This document shows, in pieces, positions 4,321 through 40,053 of a stretch of DNA of 64,000 nt; within the stretch, counting starts at the first letter, position 1, and every line of letters begins with the position of its first letter. Source of the DNA: Acorus gramineus (Eukaryota > Streptophyta > Magnoliopsida > Acorales > Acoraceae); contig CM060851.1 of NCBI GenBank assembly GCA_030737835.1, forward strand, positions 6,809,635 to 6,873,634, read 5' to 3'. A program made the translations under genes and the position numbers. The notes below the pieces were generated by a model. The model made no database searches, had not been told where the DNA came from, and was given only the letters and a program-made list of their open reading frames with translations.

Positions 4321-4458
4321 TGAAGCAGTCGGAAAACTCGAATTTGCGTGTTTTTTTTTTTTTTTTTTTTTTGAATGCGGTTTTCATGTATATTTGGTTT
4401 TTGAATATTGATTTAATGGAAAATCTATGGATTTTATGATATATACTACAGGGTTCGG

Positions 4459-5480
4459 AGACTCTGTGGAGTATCCACAGAGAAACCCTGTGTAACTCGG
4501 GTGGATGGGCGACGCGTGTAAAATGGATCACGTGATCTCATGTGAACGACTTGTCAAAACAGTGACGCCGTTAGCACCTAATTCGAATTCATTTTCCCCA
4601 TCTCTCTGTGGTTTCCCCTCTCCCATCGTCACAGAGTCTCCCTCGCCGATCTCCGCCACCTCGTGTCGTGTCTCCCTCACCGAAGCCCCGCCGCACCCTC
4701 GCCGATCTCCGCCACCTCGTGTCGTGTCTCCCTCACCGAAGCCCCGCCGCACCCTCGCCGATCTCCCGTGGTCCTACAGCCACCTCGTGAGTTTCTCATT
4801 TTTTTTATTTTTTGTAATTTGAATGTAGTTCTGTCTTGATTGTTTAGGTTCTGATATGGATTTCTGTGGTTTTCATTTGATTATTTGAATGGGTTTGTTT
4901 CATATATGGATTTGAGTAGATTTGATTTGTTATTTGAATGGGTTTGTTTCAGATATGGGGTTTGAGTGGATTTGATTATGTTATCTGAATGGGTTAGTTT
5001 CAGATATGGGTTTGAGTGGATTTCATTTCCAACACTTCAAAATCCTACTGTTTTTTTTTTTTTTTTGTGGATAAAGCCCCTGTATGACCTTTTCTTTCTT
5101 TCTTTCTTTGGGGTTTTTTTTTTTTTTTTTTTTTTGCATCAAACCCATATTTGAAGTCCTGGTAGTTCAATGAGAATGTATATATAATGTATAAAAAAAA
5201 GTTGTGACTTCTACCTTTAACTCAACACAATAATGAAATTAAGCTCCTAAGTATCTAGCAACTCAGAAATTTTTTTAAATCCCATACTGACCGACTACAA
5301 ACTCTACTACGGTGTGGGGAGTGATATAATGGATTGTATATATTCAGAATGAAATATACTGCTTCTGTGGGAAATTTTTAAGGGAAATATGCATATGTGC
5401 ACAAATTTTTAAAACCATGATAAGTTGCTTGTGATCCATACATATTTAGTCATCTTGTGTTGTTGTCTTGTAAATCCTTT
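4459..5480 (+). repeat. MULE-1 left terminal inverted repeat
   Basis: Matches the reverse complement of 11732-12747 up to about AAATCCTTT at 5480. Inside, near 4640-4790, a GC-rich ~56-bp unit containing CTCACCGAAGCCCCGCCGCA is tandemly repeated. The right TIR has the same block but with a longer unit that includes GTGGTCCTACAGCCACCTCG. The region also contains the presumed promoter, 5'UTR and intron of the transposase: an acceptor-like TATAG lies just upstream of its ATG at 5547. Confidence 0.9.
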
Positions 5481-7004
5481 CCTTCCAGTTGTCTTGTTAA
5501 ATGTTCTAAATTATGTTTTCTTCTTATAGGTGAACACTGAGTTGTTATGGAAGGAGACAATGAGATTGTGGGTGAATGTAGCTATAATGGTATACCTGAA
5601 GTTGGTATGGCATTTGATTCTGAAGATAGTGCCCATCAATTCTACAACACATATGCAAGGTCAATTGGATTTAGTATCCGAAAAAGTGATGCATTCAAGT
5701 CCAATGGCATAGTGAGAAAGAGAAAATTTTGTTGTTCTAAAGAAGGGAGGAAAGGGGTTGATAAGCGAAAAGTCTTGCACCCACAACCCGATACAAGAAC
5801 AGGATGTGAGGCACATATGATTATCTCTTATCAGTCTTCTGGTGCTTATCATGTCACTAAATTTGAACAAAACCATAATCATGATCTTGTATCAACCCCC
5901 TTGCGCCATAATTTGAGATCACATAGAAAAATAGAAAAGGCTCAAGCTGCTCAGGTTGATATCATAGATGGTTCAGGATTAGCACCAAAAGCAGTTATGG
6001 ATTTGATGAGTGGACAAGTTGGAGGTAAACAGAATCTTGGTTTTATTTTGAATGATGTAAAATCTTACCTGCGCACCAAAAGGGAAACAAGAATGGAGAA
6101 TGGAATTGCGGGTGCTCTTATTCAGTATTTCAAGAATAAGCAAAAGCAAAATCCGTCTTTCTTTCACTCAATGCAACTTGATGCCAATGAACAAATAACA
6201 AATGTGTTTTGGGCCGATGCTAGGTCTATCGTCGATTATGCACATTATGGTGATGTAATTTGCTTCGACACGACCTATCGTACAAATAATCATGGAAGAC
6301 CATTTGCACCATTCGTTGGGGTGAATAATCATCGGCAAACAATTATTTTTGGTGGTGCATTACTTTATGATGAGACAGCTGACTCATTTATTTGGTTGTT
6401 TGAAACTTTTCTTCAAGCAATGTCTGGGAGACATCCAAAGATTATTCTAACAGATCAATTAGGGGCGATGACCAAAGCTATTTCAGTGATTCTACCAAAT
6501 ACTTGTCATCGGTTATGTGTGTGGCACTTGACCCAAAATGCAACAAAGCATATTGGACATCTTTATGCCATTGAAGGTTTCAGAAGTTCCTTCTATGCTT
6601 GTATATTTGGGTACGAGACGGAGGAGGAGTTCCTAGCTGCTTGGAATAACATGCTTCAAAATTACAATCTTCAGGACAATAAATGGCTACAACAAACTTT
6701 TGCTGAGAAGGAGAAATGAGCTTTAGTGTATGGGAGAGACATATTTTGCGTAGACATGAAGAGTACACAACGAAGTGAAAGCTTCAATGCTCTTTTGAGA
6801 CGCTACTTGAACTCAAAGCATGATCCGCTACGTTTCTTTCAGCATTTTGATAGGGTTATGGATGACCGGCGTGAAAGTGAATTGAGTGCTGATTTCAAGA
6901 TGACGAATACTGTACCGGTAATTCCATATCACACTTTGATGGTGTCATGTGTTGCAAATGTTTATACACCAGAGATCCTTGAATTGTTTCAAGCAGAATA
7001 TGAC

Positions 7005-8590
7005 ACTACAACAAATTTGATTATTAGCTACGAACTTTTAGCTGCGAAATTAAGTTTCGTCGCTAAATGAAATTTTTACTTGCAAAAAAATATTTCGTAG
7101 CAAATGGTTTTACCTTTCTCCTACGAGCTACGATTTCGTAGCAAAATGTATATCTTTTCCTGCGAAATACCTATTTCGTAGTTAAAAAAGATAATTTTTA
7201 GCTACGAAATTACATTTTGTAGCAATAGATGGGCCTTTTAGCTACGACATAGATTTTCGTAGCGAAAGAAATGACTTTTAGCTGCGAAGTGCTTTTTTGT
7301 AGCAAAACAGTTGACTTTTAGCTGCGAAATTAAATTTCATAGCTAAATTTTTAGGGATTTTCAAAAGATTTTATTTGTTACAAAATCAAATTATGATCTA
7401 CATTGTATCACTATCAGACTGAGATCCTTTTGATTATAAATTCTTTTTATAATTTGATACCAAACATGAATAATAAAATTTGAACATTATTTATTATACT
7501 GGACAAAAAGCGATCAAGGTCCTTTTTTCATATATATATTTCTTTATTCAGATATGTATAAATGGAAAAAATGGATAAAGATAAAAATTAGTATATTTGA
7601 TATAGATATATACTTTATTTTTCACACTAGTCCATCATCGAATTAGTTGATTTGTTATATTAATTATGTTTGTAATTAAATATTTGGAAGGACATTTTAA
7701 TTTGGATTATGCATGTGCTTGACGAACTCTTTTCCAGATGACATTATGTAATTGATTGAAGTGTGTTGATATTAAAGTTGAGTATATTCATTTTGACATC
7801 ACGTACAATTCGTTTATTCTTGTATTTAATAAGCCCAATGTCTAATTAGATTTTTAGTTAACACTTATATATATAAAATGTATCTTTTTGGACATGAAAG
7901 TTATGATCCAGACTTTTCATTAGAATCTTAATTGCAGTACTATCACAACAATGTCAACAATACATCTCAGAAAAAAATTCATTCGCAACTATTAGACAAA
8001 AAAACATAATTAATTTACTAAAAAAGACTATAGAAAACCATACAACTTTAATAATATAAGAAAGTCATGTTTCGACAATTTCAATATTGGATATGTGGGG
8101 GTCCATGAATCATAGAGTGACAGAGAGGTCGTATTATAACATATGCTCATGTTAATAAAATATATGTTGCGATATAAGTTTTTTATATTTTTTATAAATG
8201 CATCCATAGAATTCATTTTTTTTATAAATATATCTCATTAGATTATGTATATTATTTTTAAAAAATTTAAAACACATATAAAATAAAATTAGGACTGAAA
8301 ATGAGGTTCTACAAAACAATAAAAATACCCAACCCGACTCGACTCGTTAGTGACCCAACCCGACTTGTTGATCGACCATTCTGAAGTAAAAAACCAATTT
8401 CATATTAGGGTTTGAAAACCCAAATTCACCTCACGTTCTCTCTCTACCTCTCCAAAATCGGTGGAGTCACGGACTCATGGCGATCACCATCGCCTCAGCC
8501 TCGCCGCCTCCTCAGTCAATCCGCCTTGCCGCCTCCATTCCTCTGCCTCGCCACCTTCGCCGAATCACCTTGCTGCGGGGATTGTGAAAG
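7005..8590. mobile_element. Insertion inside MULE-1 transposase, CACTA-like left end
   Basis: About 1.6 kb separates two parts of the transposase that are adjacent in relatives. The left edge reads CACTACAACAAATTTG, a typical En/Spm (CACTA) terminus, followed by the TAGCTACGAAAT palindrome array usual for CACTA subterminal regions. I could not find the expected matching right end (GTTGTAGTG), so the right border is approximate and the element may be truncated. The first bases could also be host codons (the frame reads Y-D-T-T-T-N). Positions 8410-8590 are GC-rich with a pyrimidine-rich leader and look like a piece of an unrelated 5'UTR or exon. Confidence 0.55.
7022..7345. repeat. Array of imperfect hairpin repeats
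   Basis: Five to six units of about 55-65 bp. Each pairs a TAGCTACGAAAT-like half with an ATTTCGTAGCTA-like half, so each can fold on itself. It lies just inside the CACTA-like end and is probably a transposase-binding subterminal array. Confidence 0.7.
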
Positions 8591-9534
8591 GTCTCATGGG
8601 GAGATGGGGAATGTGATAGAGTACAAAGTTCACAGAGACCGTGGCAATGAAAGAACCATTTTGTTTGATTCAGCTACTGAAATGGTTACCTGTAGCTGCA
8701 ACTAATTTGAATTTATGGGTATCCAATGTTGCCATGTTCTAAAAGTTCTTGATCACAGAAACATCAAATTTCTTCCACCACAATATAGCTTGAAGAGGTT
8801 GACAAGAGATGCAAAATCTGGTGTGGTGCATGATATTTGTTCTTCTTCAATACAGGTTGATATGTGTTTATTATATTGATTGAAAAATGTTATGAGTTGA
8901 TTGTATGATTTTATTGTAAAGTTATGTATTCTTCTTCATTACAGGTTGACTCTATTTCTGAATTGGGAAGGCGTTTTCAAGAATTAAGTCACGGTCTCAT
9001 TCAAGTGGCATCCAAGGGAGCTGAAACACACCATTCAACATACCTACTTAAACGCCGCACAAATGATTTAATGAAGGAGGTTGAGGAAGATTTGAGAAAA
9101 TCATCTCAAAATTGTCAAGATGATAATGTGCAAGATGAGGTGGATAGCATTTCGAATGTCGAGGCTGCTAAAGGCTTCAAAAGAAGAGGAAAGAAGACTG
9201 TGGGAGGGAAGCCTCAAAAAAGATGGATCGGTGTGTTGGAGAAGAGATCACGAGGTCAAAGCTCTCAAACTCAACATGCGTCCCACAATGCCATTGAGAG
9301 CCCTCAACCCTTTGCGCCAACGGTTGGGAACTACAATAGTAGTCAAGGAATGACTTCAATGACTCAATTGCTTCAGGTATATTCGTATGTAAAATACATT
9401 TTAAATATTTTTTTACTTTTCCAAATGGTCATTAATATATACATAAATATATGTAGGCACAAGAATCCCTTTTTTATCCTACTCAAATGAGTCAAGCGTC
9501 AAATTTTTCTGAAGAATGGAGGAGCACAGATTAA

Positions 9535-11039: not shown

Positions 11040-11570
11040 CTAACATATTGCTTTGATACATTGAATAACCAAGAGACCAATTAAGCACCACATAATCACT
11101 ATCAGCCTATTGTTCATCATCTTCAAATACTTTTTCATGGTCTCTTCATGGTTTTCTAGTTGAAACTTCAATTCAACAATTGGATCATCCGTGTCATCGA
11201 TCCATTCAAAAAATCGACAGTCTTGAGGAGTCTACATAGGAAAAAATGACAAACAAAAAAAGAATGTTTATTAGATCTCACTCATTAGTAATGAAAAACT
11301 TGAAAATCATTGAAATCAATTAACTCACCCTGTTAAAAGGACAACAATAAAATCTCCGACCTTTACTATGTTCTTGACGAGAAGTATAAATCGGACATTC
11401 GCCTTTCTTACAACGACATTCACGTGGCCGAATATGCGCGGGAAGTGGCCTAACATTTGAATTACGTAGGCTATTGACCTGTTGTGAAAAATTAGCTAAG
11501 AAAATTCATTCATTCATACATTCCATCAAAACTTGGTATACAAAAGGTAAACACTTACACTTTCTGACAT
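11040..11570 (-). CDS. MULE-1 accessory gene: GRF zinc finger protein with C-terminal hydrophobic anchor
   Basis: Three exons rebuilt from GT/AG borders: 11559-11570, 11329-11478 and 11040-11231, giving 117 aa (4+50+63) with no stop. A tiny first exon encodes MSES. Exon 2 carries PRECRCKKGECPIYTSRQEH then GRRFYCCPFNR. Exon 3 opens TPQDCRFFEWID. The C-x-C, R-F-Y-x-C and C-x-F-F-x-W pattern is that of GRF-type zinc fingers, a nucleic-acid-binding fold known in NEIL3, TOP3A and APE2-type proteins. A charged helix-prone stretch (ELKFQLENHEETMKKYLKM) and a hydrophobic tail (LIVIMWCLIGLLVIQCI) follow. The gene is convergent to the transposase and ends ~1.5 kb from it, like mudrB in MuDR. The tiny first exon is the least certain part. 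Function is unknown; a role in transposition or anti-silencing is inference. Confidence 0.8.
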
Positions 11571-11731
11571 AGTTGCTTGGAAGCCTCAAAAGAGAAAATG
11601 GAAGTCTTTGATTGCAAGTGATAGAGCACAATGCTTTCAATTTAGCTTGGAACAGTAGGATTATAACATGAAGCAGAAGATGGTGCTGTTAGAAAAAAAA
11701 AAAACCTATGTGATGAAGATTGAAAATACTG

Positions 11732-12074
11732 AAAGGATTCACAAGACAACAACACAAGATGACTAAATATGTATGGATCACAAGCAACTTATCATGGTTT
11801 TAAAAATTTGTGCACATATGCATATTTCCCTTAAAAATTTCCCACAGAAGCAGTATATTTCATTCTGAATATATACAATCCATTATATCACTCCCCCCAC
11901 CGCAGTAGAGTTTGTAGTAGGTCAGTATGGGATTTAAAAAAATTTCTGAGTTGCTAGATACTTAGGAGCTTAATTTCATTATTGTGTTGAGTTAAAGGTA
12001 GAAGTCACAACTTTTTTTTATACATTATATATACATTCTCATTGAACTACCAGGACTTCAAATATGGGTTTGAT

Positions 12075-12111
<37 letters not shown>

Positions 12112-12747
12112 CCAAAGAAAGAAAGAAAGAAAAGGTCATACAGGGGCTTTATCCACAAAAAAAAAAAAAAAACAGTAGGATTTTGAAGTGTTGGAAATGA
12201 AATCCACTCAAACCCATATCTGAAACTAACCCATTCAGATAACATAATCAAATCCACTCAAACCCCATATCTGAAACAAACCCATTCAAATAACAAATCA
12301 AATCTACTCAAATCCATATATGAAACAAACCCATTCAAATAATCAAATGAAAACCACAGAAATCCATATCAGAACCTAAACAATCAAGACAGAACTACAT
12401 TCAAATTACAAAAAAAAAAATTAAATGAGAAACTCACGAGGTGGCTGTAGGACCACGGGAGATCGGCGAGGGTGCGGCGGGGCTTCGGTGAGGGAGACAC
12501 GAGGTGGCTGTAGGACCACGGGAGATCGGCGAGGGTGCGGCGGGGCTTCGGTGAGGGAGACTCTGTGACGATGGGAGAGGGGAACCACAGAGAGATGGGG
12601 AAAATGAATTCGAATTAGGTGCTAACGGCGTCAACAATGGTCACTGTTTTGGCAAGTCGTTCACGTGAGATCACGTGATCCATTTTACACGCGTCGCCCA
12701 TCCACCCGAGTTACACAGGGTTTCTCTGTGGATACTCCACAGAGTCT
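11732..12747 (-). repeat. MULE-1 right terminal inverted repeat
   Basis: Reverse complement of 4459-5480 with small indels in homopolymers and in the GC-rich minisatellite (12430-12570, two ~62-bp units). The poly-A tracts at 12077-12109 and 12158-12172 correspond to poly-T tracts in the left arm. It lies just upstream of the GRF gene start and so may act as its promoter. Confidence 0.9.
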
Positions 12748-34130: not shown

Positions 34131-35328
34131 AGAAGTTTGTGCGGAGAGTTCTCCAGAGACATCTTCGATGGTCCCTTACGAAAATGGACGGTTATCATCG
34201 ATGGACTTCCTAATTGATGATTCACTGTTTAATCAATGCTCTCGGCGTGACTTTGGGTTCGGATGCACTCGTGACTGGTTTCGATCTGTATATAATTGTA
34301 CGGATTATAAATTAAACTACACAACTAGGACTGTCAATCGGACGGATATGGATTGAATAAGTTCATATCCATATCCGTATCTAAATTAGATAAAAAAAAA
34401 TTCGTATCTGATATTTGATGGATATTCCAAGACACATATTCGTATCCGATCTGAAAATCCGGATACGGATTCAGATAATAAACGAAATATCCGAACCAGA
34501 TTAAAATATAAGAATTTATAAAATTTTAAGTCCTAATATGATTAAATAGGTATCCACTAAAGACATAAAAACACAAATCATTATATAGTTAAATAAGTAT
34601 CCAACATAGTTAAATAGGTTTGTGTTTTGCCCTAGTCATGAGCCATTGGATTTTCATCTAAGGGTTGAAACTAATTCTAACATATATAAATAAAATAGGA
34701 AAACATGCATATAACTCCCTGTAAACTTGCTTATATCCGTATTAGTCCCTATTTTTTTACTAAATCCAAATAACTCCTTACAAACTTAATGTAAATCCAT
34801 TATGGTCCTTCTGTCAGTTTAGAGAACCCAATGGTTGGTTAAATTAACCAGTCTTGGTCAATTGCTATTATGCCCTTAATACATAGTAGAAGAGGTTTCT
34901 CCAAGCCTAGCTTCATTTTTTCTCTTCATCATTCTTCACCTCTATGTAGAGGGTGAACCCTAGCTTCATTTCCTCCAAGCCCAACCTATTGAAGATCATC
35001 GGCGATCCGAATCAAAAGTGCAACCACTAGTCGCAGGTGAGCTTCAAATCGATTTTAGGGTTATTAGGTTTTGAGTTTGTCATTGAGGTTGTCATTTAGG
35101 TTTTTTTCATTTTGATTTTAGGTTTCAAATGTCCTTCATTTCTTGGGTTTTCTGATAGATTGTGGTTTTTAGGGTTTTCAATATGTGATTCCTTGGGTTT
35201 TCAGATTGTGATATCTAGGATTTTCATTAATTTGATTTGTTAGGTTTTCCATATCTTTGATTTAGGGATTTTTGATTTTCCATTGAATGTTATTGCTCTC
35301 GTTTTTTGTTCTTCTTGGATACAGAATC

Positions 35329-38210
35329 ATGGATGACACCATATATAAGGTGACTTTTGTGTATGATGGATATTGGAAGCAAGTAAATTCTACTAACGGT
35401 CAAAAATATGTTGAAGGCAGATAAGATCGCTCTGATTGATCTGTGGGAAGATATCGATCCTTGGTCCAAGACAAGTAACCCCCGACAAGTCACCTTCACG
35501 TATATGTTGCCTAACATCATTCCAAGACAGTTTGTGGATGGAACTACTGATGCAAGGCTTCTAGACAATTTCAAAGAAAATGACAGAACCAAAAAGTTCA
35601 TTTTGTATGTAGTTGAAAAAGAGGATGTTGTAGCTCCCGTCCCAACAGATGTTGTGTCATGCCAAATAGATGAAAATGAGAATTTGAATGTAGATGCAGA
35701 TGGTGGAATTGAAGAGCTTGCGGTTCGTGATGAGTTGTATGGTGAACAAGAAGAACAACATTTGGATAACAAGGAAGATGATTCTGAGTTAGAGGATGGG
35801 AATTGTGATGGGGTTTCTGATGAACATACTGTTGAAGAAAATGAGGATCAACAAAAGCAGAATCCATAAGAAGAAGTGGGAGAACAACATTGTGGCTCCT
35901 ACAGTGACTGTGAGGTGTCGTCAGATGCTTGTGAAGGTGAATTCATTGAAATTGACAATGAAAAATCCAAGATAATAGTGGGTTCTAGATTTCTCAGTGT
36001 GTTTCATTTTAGAGACGCACTTAAACAATACTGTGTAATCAATGAATTCGCTGTGAAGTATATTAAGAATGATCTACTTCAGGTGACAGCTAAATGTAGA
36101 GTTGAAAAATGTACATGGCGCATCCACGGTTCTGTTTTACAAGATGGGGTCACTTTTGAGGTGAAGACTTTGAACAAAAATCACATGTGCACAAGTACAA
36201 ACAAGGTTGGGAATGAAATGGCCACATCTAGTTGGATTGGAAAGAAAATTGTACCAATCCTTCACAAAACCCCTTAATTGGGTCCATCAAAATTGAGGAT
36301 TGAAATCCAGAACAAGTACAACATCAAGTTGCCTTATTCCAGAGTGTTGAGAGCAAGAGGAAAGGCTATGGAGTTGATCCATGGGAAGCCTGCAGAGTCC
36401 TATAAACTTATCCCTGAATTGAGGCAGGAGCTGTTGAAGGCCAATCCTGATAGTGTTGTTGAATACCAGTTAGATGTGGATAATACATTCATGCGATTCT
36501 TTGTTTGCCTTGGGGCTTGTAGGATGGGATTCTTGCAGGGATGTAGACCCTTCATTGGATTGGATTGGATGTCATCTGAAGGGGGTGTACAAGGGCATCA
36601 TGCTCAGTGCCACTGCTGTAGATGCAGATAGTTGTTTATTTCCACTTGCATTCGTCGTAGTTGAGTCAGAAAGTGGAGATACTTGGAGATGGTTCTTGGA
36701 GATGCTTTATGAAGCAATAGGTTCTTTACAAGGTTTGACTTTCATGTCTGATAAAGGCAAGGGCTTGCGATCTGCTGTTCATATTGTATTCCCAGGAGTA
36801 GAACATTGTACTTGTGTAAGACATTTATATTTCAATTTTAAGAAGAAGTTCCCGGGGGAGTTCTTTGAAAGGTTAGTTTGTGCACAAGTTCATATAGTAT
36901 AACAACATTTAAGCATAATTTGAGAGAGATCAGGATGGCTTCCTCTTCAGCAGCAACATATTTAGATGATGTCACTGATCATTCATGGAGCCGGTCACAG
37001 TTTGGCATTGGAGCGAAGTGTAATTACTTGACAAATAACATTTCAGAATCTTTCAATGCTTGGATTAATAAAGCTAGGGGGCTACTAATTGTCGAGTTGG
37101 TGGGCACAATCAGACACAAGATTATGCAGAGAATAAATCATCGTCGAAGCTTAGGAAAAGAATGGAGAGGGAAGCTGGCTCCAAAGGCATTCAAATATGT
37201 TCAAAATCTTGTTAAGGGTATTGGTAACTACATTGTGAGAAGGAGTGATGACCAGAGAGCTGAGGTTGTTGGACCAGAGATTATTTGTGTTATCAGACTG
37301 GATGAGAAAACCTGCACTTGTAGAGTTTGGCAGGTTTCAGGTTTTCCATGTGTACACACTGTTGCTTTTATTACAACAGTGAGAGGATTAGATGTATGTG
37401 ATTTTGTGCATGAATATTTTACATTGGAGAAGTTTAGATTGACATATGCTTATGCAGTGGGACCTATGCCTATCAGAGAGGAATGGGAGAAGGTTGACCT
37501 GCCATTTATTGTCCAAAAACAGTGAGACCAAGAGGAAGACCAAAAAGGAATAGAATTTGTGATCCCAATGAGAAAAACAAGCGTAGGCATATGTGTACAA
37601 GATGTAGAGAATACGGCCATCATATATCCACTTGTAAAAATCCAATTTCAAATGATTCCCAAGGCAGTGGAACTGTTGCAAGAGGACGTGGAAGAGGACA
37701 CGGGAGGTATGTTGTCTATAGTTTTTTTTTTCAATGAAAAATTATCTCTTCTATTTTCCTGTTTTGATTTTTTTTCCATGTTTATATAAAGGGCTGCACA
37801 ATTCATACAAAGAGAGTATGGGAGAAGGAAGCAGTATGGGGGGTACTCCAAGAAGCATGTGGGGTACTCAGACTCCTGGAATAAATATGAGTGTGGGAGA
37901 GATTCAAAGTCAAGCTAGCATTGGTGGATTCCAAGCCCAATCTACTATGGGAAATGCCACAATCAATATTTATGGAGCAAGGTAAAAATTATTTAAATTC
38001 AATCAATTAACATTTGTCTATTGAAAGCTAATATCATTTATTAAACCTAGTAGTTTAAGTGTTGGAGCTACAAGTAGGAGAGGGAGATCTTTAGGAGTGA
38101 GGCCATCTAGGAGGGATATTTGTAAAGCAACAAGGGAGAGACCAAAAATTCCAACCAAGAGAGGTGGCAAGGCTATACAAGGTCCAAGGGATATTTCTGA
38201 AACAGAGTAG
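35329..38210 (+). pseudogene. MULE-2 transposase, MuDR type with zinc knuckle, disabled
   Basis: Starts MDDTIYKVTFVYDGYWKQVN just after a leader intron. An acidic linker follows, then the Mutator DNA-binding region (FRDALKQYCVINEFAVKYIK, CTWRIHGSV) and the MULE DDE core: FIGLD (first Asp), TFMSDKGKGL (second Asp), HCTCVRHLYFNFKKKF and SESFNAWI. The SWIM finger CTCRVWQVSGFPCVH and the C2HC knuckle CTRCREYGHHISTC come next. Likely 3' introns at ~37706-37792 and 37982-38050 lead to a basic tail ending DISETE at 38210. It is broken by stops at 35422-35424, 35867-35869 and 36275-36277, and by frame changes near 35.42, 36.57, 36.88 and 37.52 kb. One break is an extra T at ~36566, directly after the first catalytic Asp codon. 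Confidence 0.9.
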
Positions 38211-38920
38211 TCTCCTGTCAGCACAAGTCATGTTTGATTTAAAGTGAAAAACAATGTTATGTGAAGCATGTTTGACTAAAACACATAGTGTTTCTGAAAG
38301 TGAAACACATTGTCAAATTTTTTTTTTTTTGTGTGTGTTGTTAGATGTATTATGTGATGCATGTTTGATGTAAACATTTTAAATGAGCTATGTTATTTAT
38401 TTCAGCCTATGATGTTTACAATTTTGTGCTATTTTGTGGCATTTATTTAGTTAGTGATGAAAATAAGTATATAGATATGTGATGTTCTGCTCATATTGAT
38501 GTATATAGGCTTGAATGAATATATACAGGTGTTGATGTTAAGACTTGAATGAATATATATACAAGCTTCAAAATATATATAGGTTTTGATGTGTTTGTTG
38601 TTTAGTACAGTTCAGGCTTGAATGAATATATACATGCTTGAATTAATGTGTTTTAGTTCAGGCAAAAATACATTCATGTGCTCCAAACTTGATTCTGGGC
38701 ATGCATTCACACAACTAATATAGGCATTGATTTACTCAAGAGCAGCCACTTGGTCTCAACACCATGATCAAGAGCAAGCAGCAGTTCATAATGTTCAAAA
38801 GAACAAGCAGCAACTCATAATGTTGAATAGAAATTGGTCTCATCACTATGTATAATAAATAGATTAACATCTAACATCAATTTATCATTTATACATCAAC
38901 ATTGGACAAATAAACCCATC

Positions 38921-39416
38921 TCAATACATAGATTTACAAATGATAACAACTAGTAACACTAATATAATTTTCAGCATGTTCTTCAATAAATTGAACTTCT
39001 TCTCCATTGCAGCCTCAATGTCCATTAGCTGAAATTCGAGATCAATTGTGGAGTGACTAGGCTCGTCAATCCATTCAAAAAATCTACAATCCTGAGGTGA
39101 CTGTAATACAAAATAAAGCAGTTAAAGATTTAATAGTTTTAAATGGAAATTAATCTAATTAAAATGAATAAATAAGAACACACTCTATTGAATTGACAAC
39201 AATAAAACCTCCATCCTTTGCTATGTTCTTGGCGAGATATGAGAACTATGCATTCACCCTTCTTACATCGACATTCCCGTGGGAGGACATACGTGTGATA
39301 GGGTCTAACAGTGGCGCTATGCGAGCTAGATGATTGGAAAACATAAATTAGTTTCATTTAGGCATTTTGTCAAACACCATCAAAGCAAGAAAAAAAAAAC
39401 CTTCCATTTCAGACAT
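38921..39416 (-). CDS. MULE-2 accessory gene: GRF zinc finger protein, second copy
   Basis: Same architecture as 11040-11570. The central exon (5' border unresolved, about 39184-39315) encodes PRECRCKKGEC, ISRQEHSKGWRFYCCQFNR; its donor follows the same Arg codon as in MULE-1. The last exon (38921-39100) encodes SPQDCRFFEWIDEPSHSTID, a helix-prone stretch (EAAMEKKFNLLKNM) and a hydrophobic end (LKIILVLLVVIICKSMY). A start exon equivalent to MSES is likely at 39416 (ATG TCT GAA ATG GAA), but I could not join it to the central exon in frame, so the 5' end may be damaged or use another splice site. The gene is convergent to the transposase. Confidence 0.7.
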
Positions 39417-40053
39417 CATATACTTGTTGGTGTACTAAAGAATGAAGATGAAGATGTAGAGAGGGAGAGATTGAATGAGAGAGAGGGGATGATTAAAATC
39501 AGAGGAAGAAGAAATGGTTAGGGAGAGGGGAGAGGAGAGGGAATATATGAGCGATGGGGGTGTGGGGGAGCAACAGACATATCTGTAACGGTCGGGAGGG
39601 GCAAAAATGTAATTGTCAGGGATCTATGTGAATTTTAAATTATTTTCAGGGACTTATTTGCACATCTACTATTATTCTACGGTTAACTAGACGGAATATA
39701 CTGGGAATATTCCAATTCTGTTAGCTGAATTTTACCCCAGGGATTTTTATGGATTTACATTAAGTTCGTAGGGAGTTATTTGGATTTAGTAAAAACACAG
39801 GGACTAATATGGATATAAGCAAGTTTACAGGGAGTTATATGCATTTTTTCCGATAAAATAACAGCTCGGATACAGATATTGTTCGGATCGGATATAGGCT
39901 ATATCCAATCTGATCCAAAAATTTTCAGATATGGATAATTTGGTTCGGATATGGATACAGATTTTCGGATATCAGATATTTTCTACATTTTTTGATACGG
40001 ATTCGGATCGGATACAGATATTTTTTCGGATAATTGACAGGCTTATACACAAC

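Follow-up and report, generated by a model that had tools for sequence, protein, structure and literature searches.

A GRF zinc-ribbon gene with a hydrophobic C-terminal tail in the mudrB position of Mutator-group transposons of Acorus gramineus

Mutator-group transposons (MULEs) of Acorus gramineus carry, in the position that mudrB takes in maize MuDR, a small gene for a protein with a GRF-type zinc ribbon and a hydrophobic C-terminal tail. The gene recurs convergent to the transposase gene in both FAR1-type and MuDR-type elements, and in some elements related to the one first examined the same slot is taken by a gene with an unrelated head, the N-terminal domain of RNase H1 (HBD). Transposons that are close relatives of one another differ in the version of the small gene that they have, which points to an undescribed helper function in this group of transposons.

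The GRF gene and its elements in the window

The gene was found in a window of 64,000 nucleotides from A. gramineus contig CM060851.1 (Table 1), where it lies on the minus strand at 11040-11570 and comprises three exons, separated by GT-AG introns, with an open reading frame for a product of 117 residues. The earlier note on this DNA had described a spliced gene of this size with a GRF finger and a hydrophobic C-terminus, and the description was borne out: the test set beforehand, a match to PF06839 (Zn_ribbon_GRF), gave 35.9 bits (E 8.1e-9) against a curated cut-off of 25.9 bits, and the tail reaches a KD19 of 2.46, one residue before the C-terminus. GRF was the only domain seen in the Pfam scan of the protein, from which PF10536 (PMD) was absent. 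The join of exons 1 and 2, between MSES and VNSLRN, is common to the gene model and to the A. calamus proteins P0006 and P0007, and the A. gramineus protein P0001 most likely comes from an existing model of the same gene that was spliced in another way.

Table 1. Coordinates of the features of the two MULEs, given as positions in the window.
Feature	Positions	Strand	Evidence or remark
Left TIR, element 1	4451..5481	+	Terminus GGGTTCGGAG; arm aligned over 4459-5481
FAR1 + MULE transposase, 5' part	5547..6719	+	PF03101 83.5 bits, PF10551 96.6 bits; ended by in-frame TGA
Foreign insertion in transposase gene	7003..8593		Absent from homologous copies; L020/L031 align as far as 7002 and again from 8594
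Transposase 3' part (SWIM-region exon and C-terminal exon)	8594..9533	+	L034/L039 homology ends near 9533
GRF-TM gene exon 3: DCRFFEW, helix, hydrophobic C-terminal tail	11040..11231	-	Hydropathy
GRF-TM gene exon 2: first half of finger (ECRCKKGEC...FYCCPFNR)	11329..11478	-	Pfam scan
GRF-TM gene exon 1 (MSES)	11559..11570	-	Exon 1-2 join also in annotated A. calamus proteins P0006, P0007
Right TIR, element 1	11731..12747	-	Inverted-repeat alignment; without the outermost ~8 bp present on the left
Element 2, MuDR-type MULE	34698..39851	+	106-nt TIRs (93%); 9-bp TSD with 1 mismatch (weak)
DBD_Tnp_Mut (PF03108), element 2 transposase	35969..36163	+	Profile match C5:6845603-6845797
Element 2 GRF-TM gene, exons 2 and 3	38942..39327	-	Convergent to its own transposase

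Within element 1 the GRF gene faces a FAR1-type MULE transposase in convergent orientation and is enclosed by TIRs of about 1 kb, the arms of which are 92% identical over 1057 columns, gaps included; the mudrB-like position claimed for it in the earlier note therefore holds. This copy has a broken transposase, with a TGA at 6717-6719 and an insertion of foreign sequence between 7002 and 8594. A search with 40 nt of slack and one mismatch allowed gave no TSD for the element; L018, a locus of the window family, has the same terminus as the left TIR of element 1 together with a perfect 9-bp TSD. Element 2, about 22 kb away, encodes a GRF protein whose tail has a KD19 of 2.28 and lies five residues before the C-terminus.

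Several structural features of element 1 were observed in addition. The insertion in its transposase gene opens with tandem units of about 40 bp, of the form TTTTAGCTACGAAAT...TTCGTAGC, and a similar stretch is present in L025. A hairpin-forming palindrome, CTCTGTGGA GTA TCCACAGAG, adjoins the TIR terminus at 4451-4492, with a single-strand folding z-score of -2.05 over 156 nt, and tandem repeats of about 56-63 bp occur within the TIRs (4640-4751 and 12426-12551), with units that differ between the arms.

In a profile search against solved structures the finger matched those of NEIL3 (5.6e-10), ZCCHC4 (1.3e-4) and, weakly, APE2 (0.13). Eight aligned GRF proteins all have C25, C27, C59 and the FFEW motif, and C50 is replaced in that of L019; the PF06839 scores of the L037 and L038 proteins are just under the cut-off, at 22.2 and 22.6 bits, respectively. 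At a threshold of KD19 >= 1.6, the strongest 19-residue hydrophobic stretch lies 0-10 residues from the C-terminus in 12 of 13 GRF proteins (KD19 1.83-3.57; two of the 13, L030 and L034, are copies of one family), the exception being the broken copy L024, in which it lies 23 residues from the stop; the tail of the L044 protein reaches a KD19 of 3.0. As a background, 16 of 110 ORFs of 100-200 residues from the fetched loci, which may include some of these GRF genes, reach a KD of 1.6 near their end. In the AlphaFold model of P0005, a related protein, a moderate-confidence finger leads into a single long helix (mean pLDDT 77, pTM 0.42). C-terminal membrane anchoring is the established behaviour of proteins with such a layout, and the succession of zinc ribbon, linker or helix and C-terminal hydrophobic tail makes the product most likely a tail-anchored membrane protein.

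Between lineages the dN/dS of the GRF gene is 0.18 (window/L024), 0.26 (window/L028) and 0.38 (L032/L033), with higher values in younger pairs (0.64 for L026/L001 and 0.52 for L024/L028), which at least partly reflect decay; the L029/L032 pair is saturated. This pattern fits, without proving, purifying selection followed by decay of single copies. Relatives outside Acorus recovered by protein search are few and distant: Phlomoides, Vigna 'At1g43920' and two from Tanacetum.

Association of GRF genes with MULE transposases across the genome

The association was quantified in one genome, that of A. gramineus, for matches of the window transposase (clade A, n = 108), matches of the L026 transposase (clade B, n = 64), PF03108 matches (n = 150) and PF10551 matches (n = 150, of which 106 lie outside clades A and B). 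The GRF matches listed by several searches were merged into at least 271 clusters, a neighbour was defined as lying within 12 kb, and the chance rate was taken from randomised coordinates. A GRF cluster adjoins 40 of the 108 clade A matches (37 convergent, 3 tandem), 13 of the 64 clade B matches (12 convergent, 1 divergent) and 59 of the 150 PF03108 matches (57 convergent, 2 tandem), with 34 of the best 50 PF03108 matches having one, compared with 1.8% of random positions and a single, divergent case among the 106 other PF10551 matches. Over the three lists together, 106 of 112 GRF-transposase pairs are convergent, 5 tandem and 1 divergent, and the spacing is 2-4 kb in 76 of the 112. The enrichment of homologues beside MULE transposases that the earlier note had proposed to test is present, at 20-39% against 1.8%, although 159 of the 271 clusters have no transposase within 12 kb among the transposase matches listed. 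In these counts one element can figure twice through separate pieces of its transposase, as with C9:18532927 and C9:18533434; one or more overlapping second pieces of GRF matches, C4:15819140 among them, were left out, and L036, in which a GRF gene stands in tandem beside a different MULE transposase, was kept.

Among 117 sampled PMD matches, from which second (C-terminal) pieces were left out, only 4 have a listed MULE transposase within 12 kb, and PMD as an accessory in the A. gramineus genome is unsupported by this sample.

No GRF neighbour was detected for 51 of the 64 clade B and 91 of the 150 PF03108 matches, and 36 of the 108 clade A matches have neither a GRF nor an HBD neighbour. The GRF counts are probably too low, because only the best candidates were scored and because the diverged GRF gene of L044, a MuDR-type element first counted as GRF-less, was missed until its DNA was read. 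In the fetched stretch of L043 (clade B, 62% group; C68:1434600-1439100), no ORF longer than 73 residues was seen 3' of the transposase; together with the matches lacking a GRF neighbour, this indicates that the accessory gene is not universal.

A sample of loci, the first 20 of 141 GRF clusters in contig-name order with 5 kb fetched on each side, was read at sequence level. A MULE transposase is present within 5 kb in 13 of the 20, convergent in 12 and tandem in L036; it is FAR1-type in L020, L026, L030, L031 and L034, MuDR-type or SWIM-bearing in L017, L019, L021, L023, L024, L032 and L033, and of a further type in L036. Two more loci, L018 and L025, are remnants of the window family, and in L028 and L035 perfect 9-bp repeats flank a pair of inverted repeats, which brings the loci with MULE evidence to 17 of 20, L029 being doubtful; within 5 kb on either side of the GRF gene, none was found at L022 and L027. 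TSDs were sought with 25 nt of slack and one mismatch tolerated, with no estimate of how often such repeats arise by chance, so that the A/T-rich TSDs of L017, L028, L029 and window element 2 are weak; L030 has a perfect 9-bp TSD. Eight further loci were chosen rather than sampled: L037 and L038 with GRF, L039, L043 and L044 as GRF-less, and L040-L042 for HBD. Long open transposase frames stand beside the GRF gene in L026, L030 and L037, and the copies in L024 and L028 are broken. The assignment of the gene to a FAR1-type MULE in the earlier note is accordingly right for window element 1, but the gene is not special to this type: its confinement to FAR1-type MULEs is ruled out by the MuDR-type elements that also carry it, and the slot also takes HBD.

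Two of these loci have unusual arrangements. L036 holds an 875-aa MULE transposase ORF (6688-9312) with a GRF fragment adjoining in tandem orientation; the C-terminal part of this transposase resembles an OTU protease by eye, and the Pfam scan gave no such match. In L038 the GRF protein (5983-6549) has a duplicated segment near its C-terminus, and an inverted repeat of about 500 nt (5282-5780 / 6902-7401) encloses the GRF gene alone.

An alternative head and the exchange of modules

The slot is not restricted to GRF genes. L039 (C5:7760000-7768999), a clade A element chosen for its long frame, has an open transposase frame of 809 residues, TIRs of at least ~770 nt (the left arm reaches the edge of the stretch) and no GRF gene; its convergent slot holds a gene that matches PF01693 (Cauli_VI, RNase H1 N-terminal) at 66 bits, with no other RNase H domain in the Pfam scan. 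Simple loss as the explanation for GRF-less clade A elements is ruled out in this copy, the one tested. The HBD frame of L039 has 136 residues and a different end, without a hydrophobic tail; that of L040-L042 has 149 residues and a hydrophobic C-terminal tail with a KD19 of 3.08, three residues from the end.

An HBD gene lies within 12 kb of 32 of the 108 clade A matches, convergent in every case, compared with 1 of 64 clade B and 1 of 150 PF03108 matches (both tandem), none of the 106 other PF10551 matches and 0.64% of random positions; 14 of the 134 rows of the HBD list, all second pieces of kept loci, were left out. No clade A match in the lists has both genes (40 GRF, 32 HBD, 36 neither). 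Before GRF type III was added, the contents of clade A stood at 14 GRF type I, 25 GRF type II and 32 HBD, and they vary with the identity of the transposase to that of the window: at 95% or above, 10 of 11 matches have GRF type I; at 76-88% (81 matches), there are 31 HBD, 22 GRF type II, 3 type I and 25 without either; and below 76% (16 matches), 3 GRF type II, 1 HBD, 1 type I and 11 without either. With type III, which these bins predate, one further clade A match (79% identity) gains a GRF neighbour. Unrelated heads on like tails, mutually exclusive in one slot, provide the strongest hint at function.

The exchange of accessory genes is also illustrated by comparison of the window family (A1) with a second family, A2 (L030, L034). 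The transposases of A1 and A2 are 87% identical (dS 0.27, dN 0.069) and group together in the transposase tree (support 90/88), and the homology starts at the transposase ATG and stops near its stop codon, the 5' flanks aligning no better than shuffled sequence. Homology of the window element to L039 extends into the 46 nt before the ATG, and a further match of 42 nt is found 3' of the gene; among the clade A elements compared, homology is essentially limited to the transposase gene. A1 has TIRs of ~1 kb and a three-exon GRF gene (type I), whereas A2 has TIRs of 34 nt (L030) and a single-exon GRF gene (type II), and their GRF proteins are only 17% identical despite the 87% identity of the transposases. 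Conversely, L024 combines a GRF protein that has 76% identity to the window's with a MuDR-type transposase that has 16%, and the GRF protein tree places A1 with L024 (support 100/99). Constraining the A1 and A2 GRF proteins to group together was rejected (AU p 2e-51), and constraining all FAR1-type GRFs together gave p 0.0086, with constraint groups that follow the transposases but were chosen when the identity table was already known. At the level of sequence, then, either the transposase gene or the chassis around it has been transferred between elements, and the GRF gene behaves as a swappable cassette. One GRF lineage is common to FAR1-type and MuDR-type MULEs, with transposase genes and TIR/accessory modules recombining.

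Proposed function and comparison with known systems

The reading that we favour, with modest confidence, is that the GRF gene is a MULE helper in the mudrB position, the tail-anchored product of which tethers transposon nucleic acid to a membrane. The helper gene would sit between the 3' end of the transposase gene and the far TIR, convergent to the transposase; its product would be anchored by the C-terminal tail, with the head facing the cytosol or nucleoplasm; and the head, of the NEIL3/APE2/ZCCHC4 type, would bind single-stranded ends, R-loops or the transcript. The protein would in this way hold a transcript or an intermediate of transposition at the inner nuclear membrane or ER, and the tether might either aid transposition or integration or shield the element from silencing. 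Relatives of the GRF and HBD heads bind ssDNA, RNA or hybrids. We infer the membrane topology, nucleic-acid binding and helper role; binding of ssDNA or RNA and placement at the nuclear envelope or ER are suggested by homology to the NEIL3 and ZCCHC4 fingers together with hydropathy. A broader proposal, which we hold more tentatively, is that MULEs have a dedicated slot for interchangeable cassettes, with at least three diverged GRF types or an RNase H1 HBD on a membrane tail, and that the transposase gene recombines with a TIR-plus-cassette chassis; the common role, possibly that of MURB and of Abermu ORFR too, would be the tethering of a nucleic-acid intermediate to the nuclear membrane.

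A different role for the protein, as an anti-silencing factor like VANC of VANDAL that would act on element DNA or transcripts and not in transposition, is credible but unlikely. The heads would suit it, the GRF of ZCCHC4 and the N-terminal domain of RNase H1 being fitted to RNA or RNA:DNA hybrids, but a membrane tail is not expected of such a factor. MULE accessory genes with roles of this kind do exist, vanC among them (PMC6446971).

Distinctly less probable is the capture of host GRF genes by MULEs as functionless, Pack-MULE-like passengers. MULEs are known to capture genes (PMC6446971), the L024 and L028 copies are broken and 159 of the 271 clusters have no listed transposase; such passengers would, however, hardly account for recurrence with three groups of transposase in a single convergent arrangement (106/112), for the long open transposase frames adjoining the gene in L026, L030 and L037, for a between-lineage dN/dS of 0.18-0.38 with a recurring tail, or for MULE evidence in 17 of 20 sampled loci. 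Chance co-location or an annotation artefact, to be considered where both partners are numerous (271 GRF clusters, 1162 first-look MULE candidates), has a negligible probability and is ruled out by the coordinate counts (20-39% seen against 1.8% expected, 106/112 convergent, 1/106 for other MULEs) and the PMD comparator (4/117).

If the GRF gene is indeed a tethering helper of MULEs, many 'hypothetical GRF-type' plant proteins would be transposon helpers, and the present data suggest that many of the annotated plant 'hypothetical proteins' of GRF type are of transposon origin. A literature search that reached few subscription journals, and whose silence is therefore no proof of novelty, yielded no paper that connects GRF or HBD proteins with MULEs; among the matches listed for broader queries, judged by title, none concerned a GRF accessory gene of MULEs.

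The layout of the GRF gene is that of mudrB in maize MuDR, likewise a small second gene convergent to the transposase and inside the TIRs. To our knowledge MURB has no known fold, unlike the GRF and HBD domains found here, a distinction drawn from descriptions. Published accounts give opposite transcription of mudrB and the transposase (PMC9168764) and an apparent requirement of mudrB for integration (PMC6446971). A similar convergent layout is described for ORFR of Abermu MULEs, an opposite-strand ORF of unknown function, placed in type II elements after the transposase ORF and before the 3' TIR, which evolves far more rapidly in sequence than the transposase and shows no similarity between distant plants (PMC9168764); the terms 'GRF' and 'transmembrane' are absent from the main text of that source, and the comparison is by description only. 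Extra MULE ORFs listed elsewhere comprise mudrB, vanB/vanC, mutB and PMD, again without 'GRF' in the main text (PMC6446971), and the PMD accessory genes of plant MULEs are described there as extra genes that are often antisense to the transposase, as the GRF gene is, but they encode a different domain.

By profile, the GRF gene has its finger family in common with the zinc ribbons of NEIL3, ZCCHC4 and, with a weak match, APE2; those fingers are domains of cellular enzymes, whereas here a lone finger on a hydrophobic tail is encoded in a transposon. The HBD cassette similarly has its head in common with the N-terminal domain of RNase H1, as a short protein encoded beside a MULE transposase, with a tail in L040-L042. 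The question of what the second gene does in Mutator elements dates back to mudrB, and with recognisable nucleic-acid-binding domains on hydrophobic tails now found in the mudrB slot, it becomes testable.
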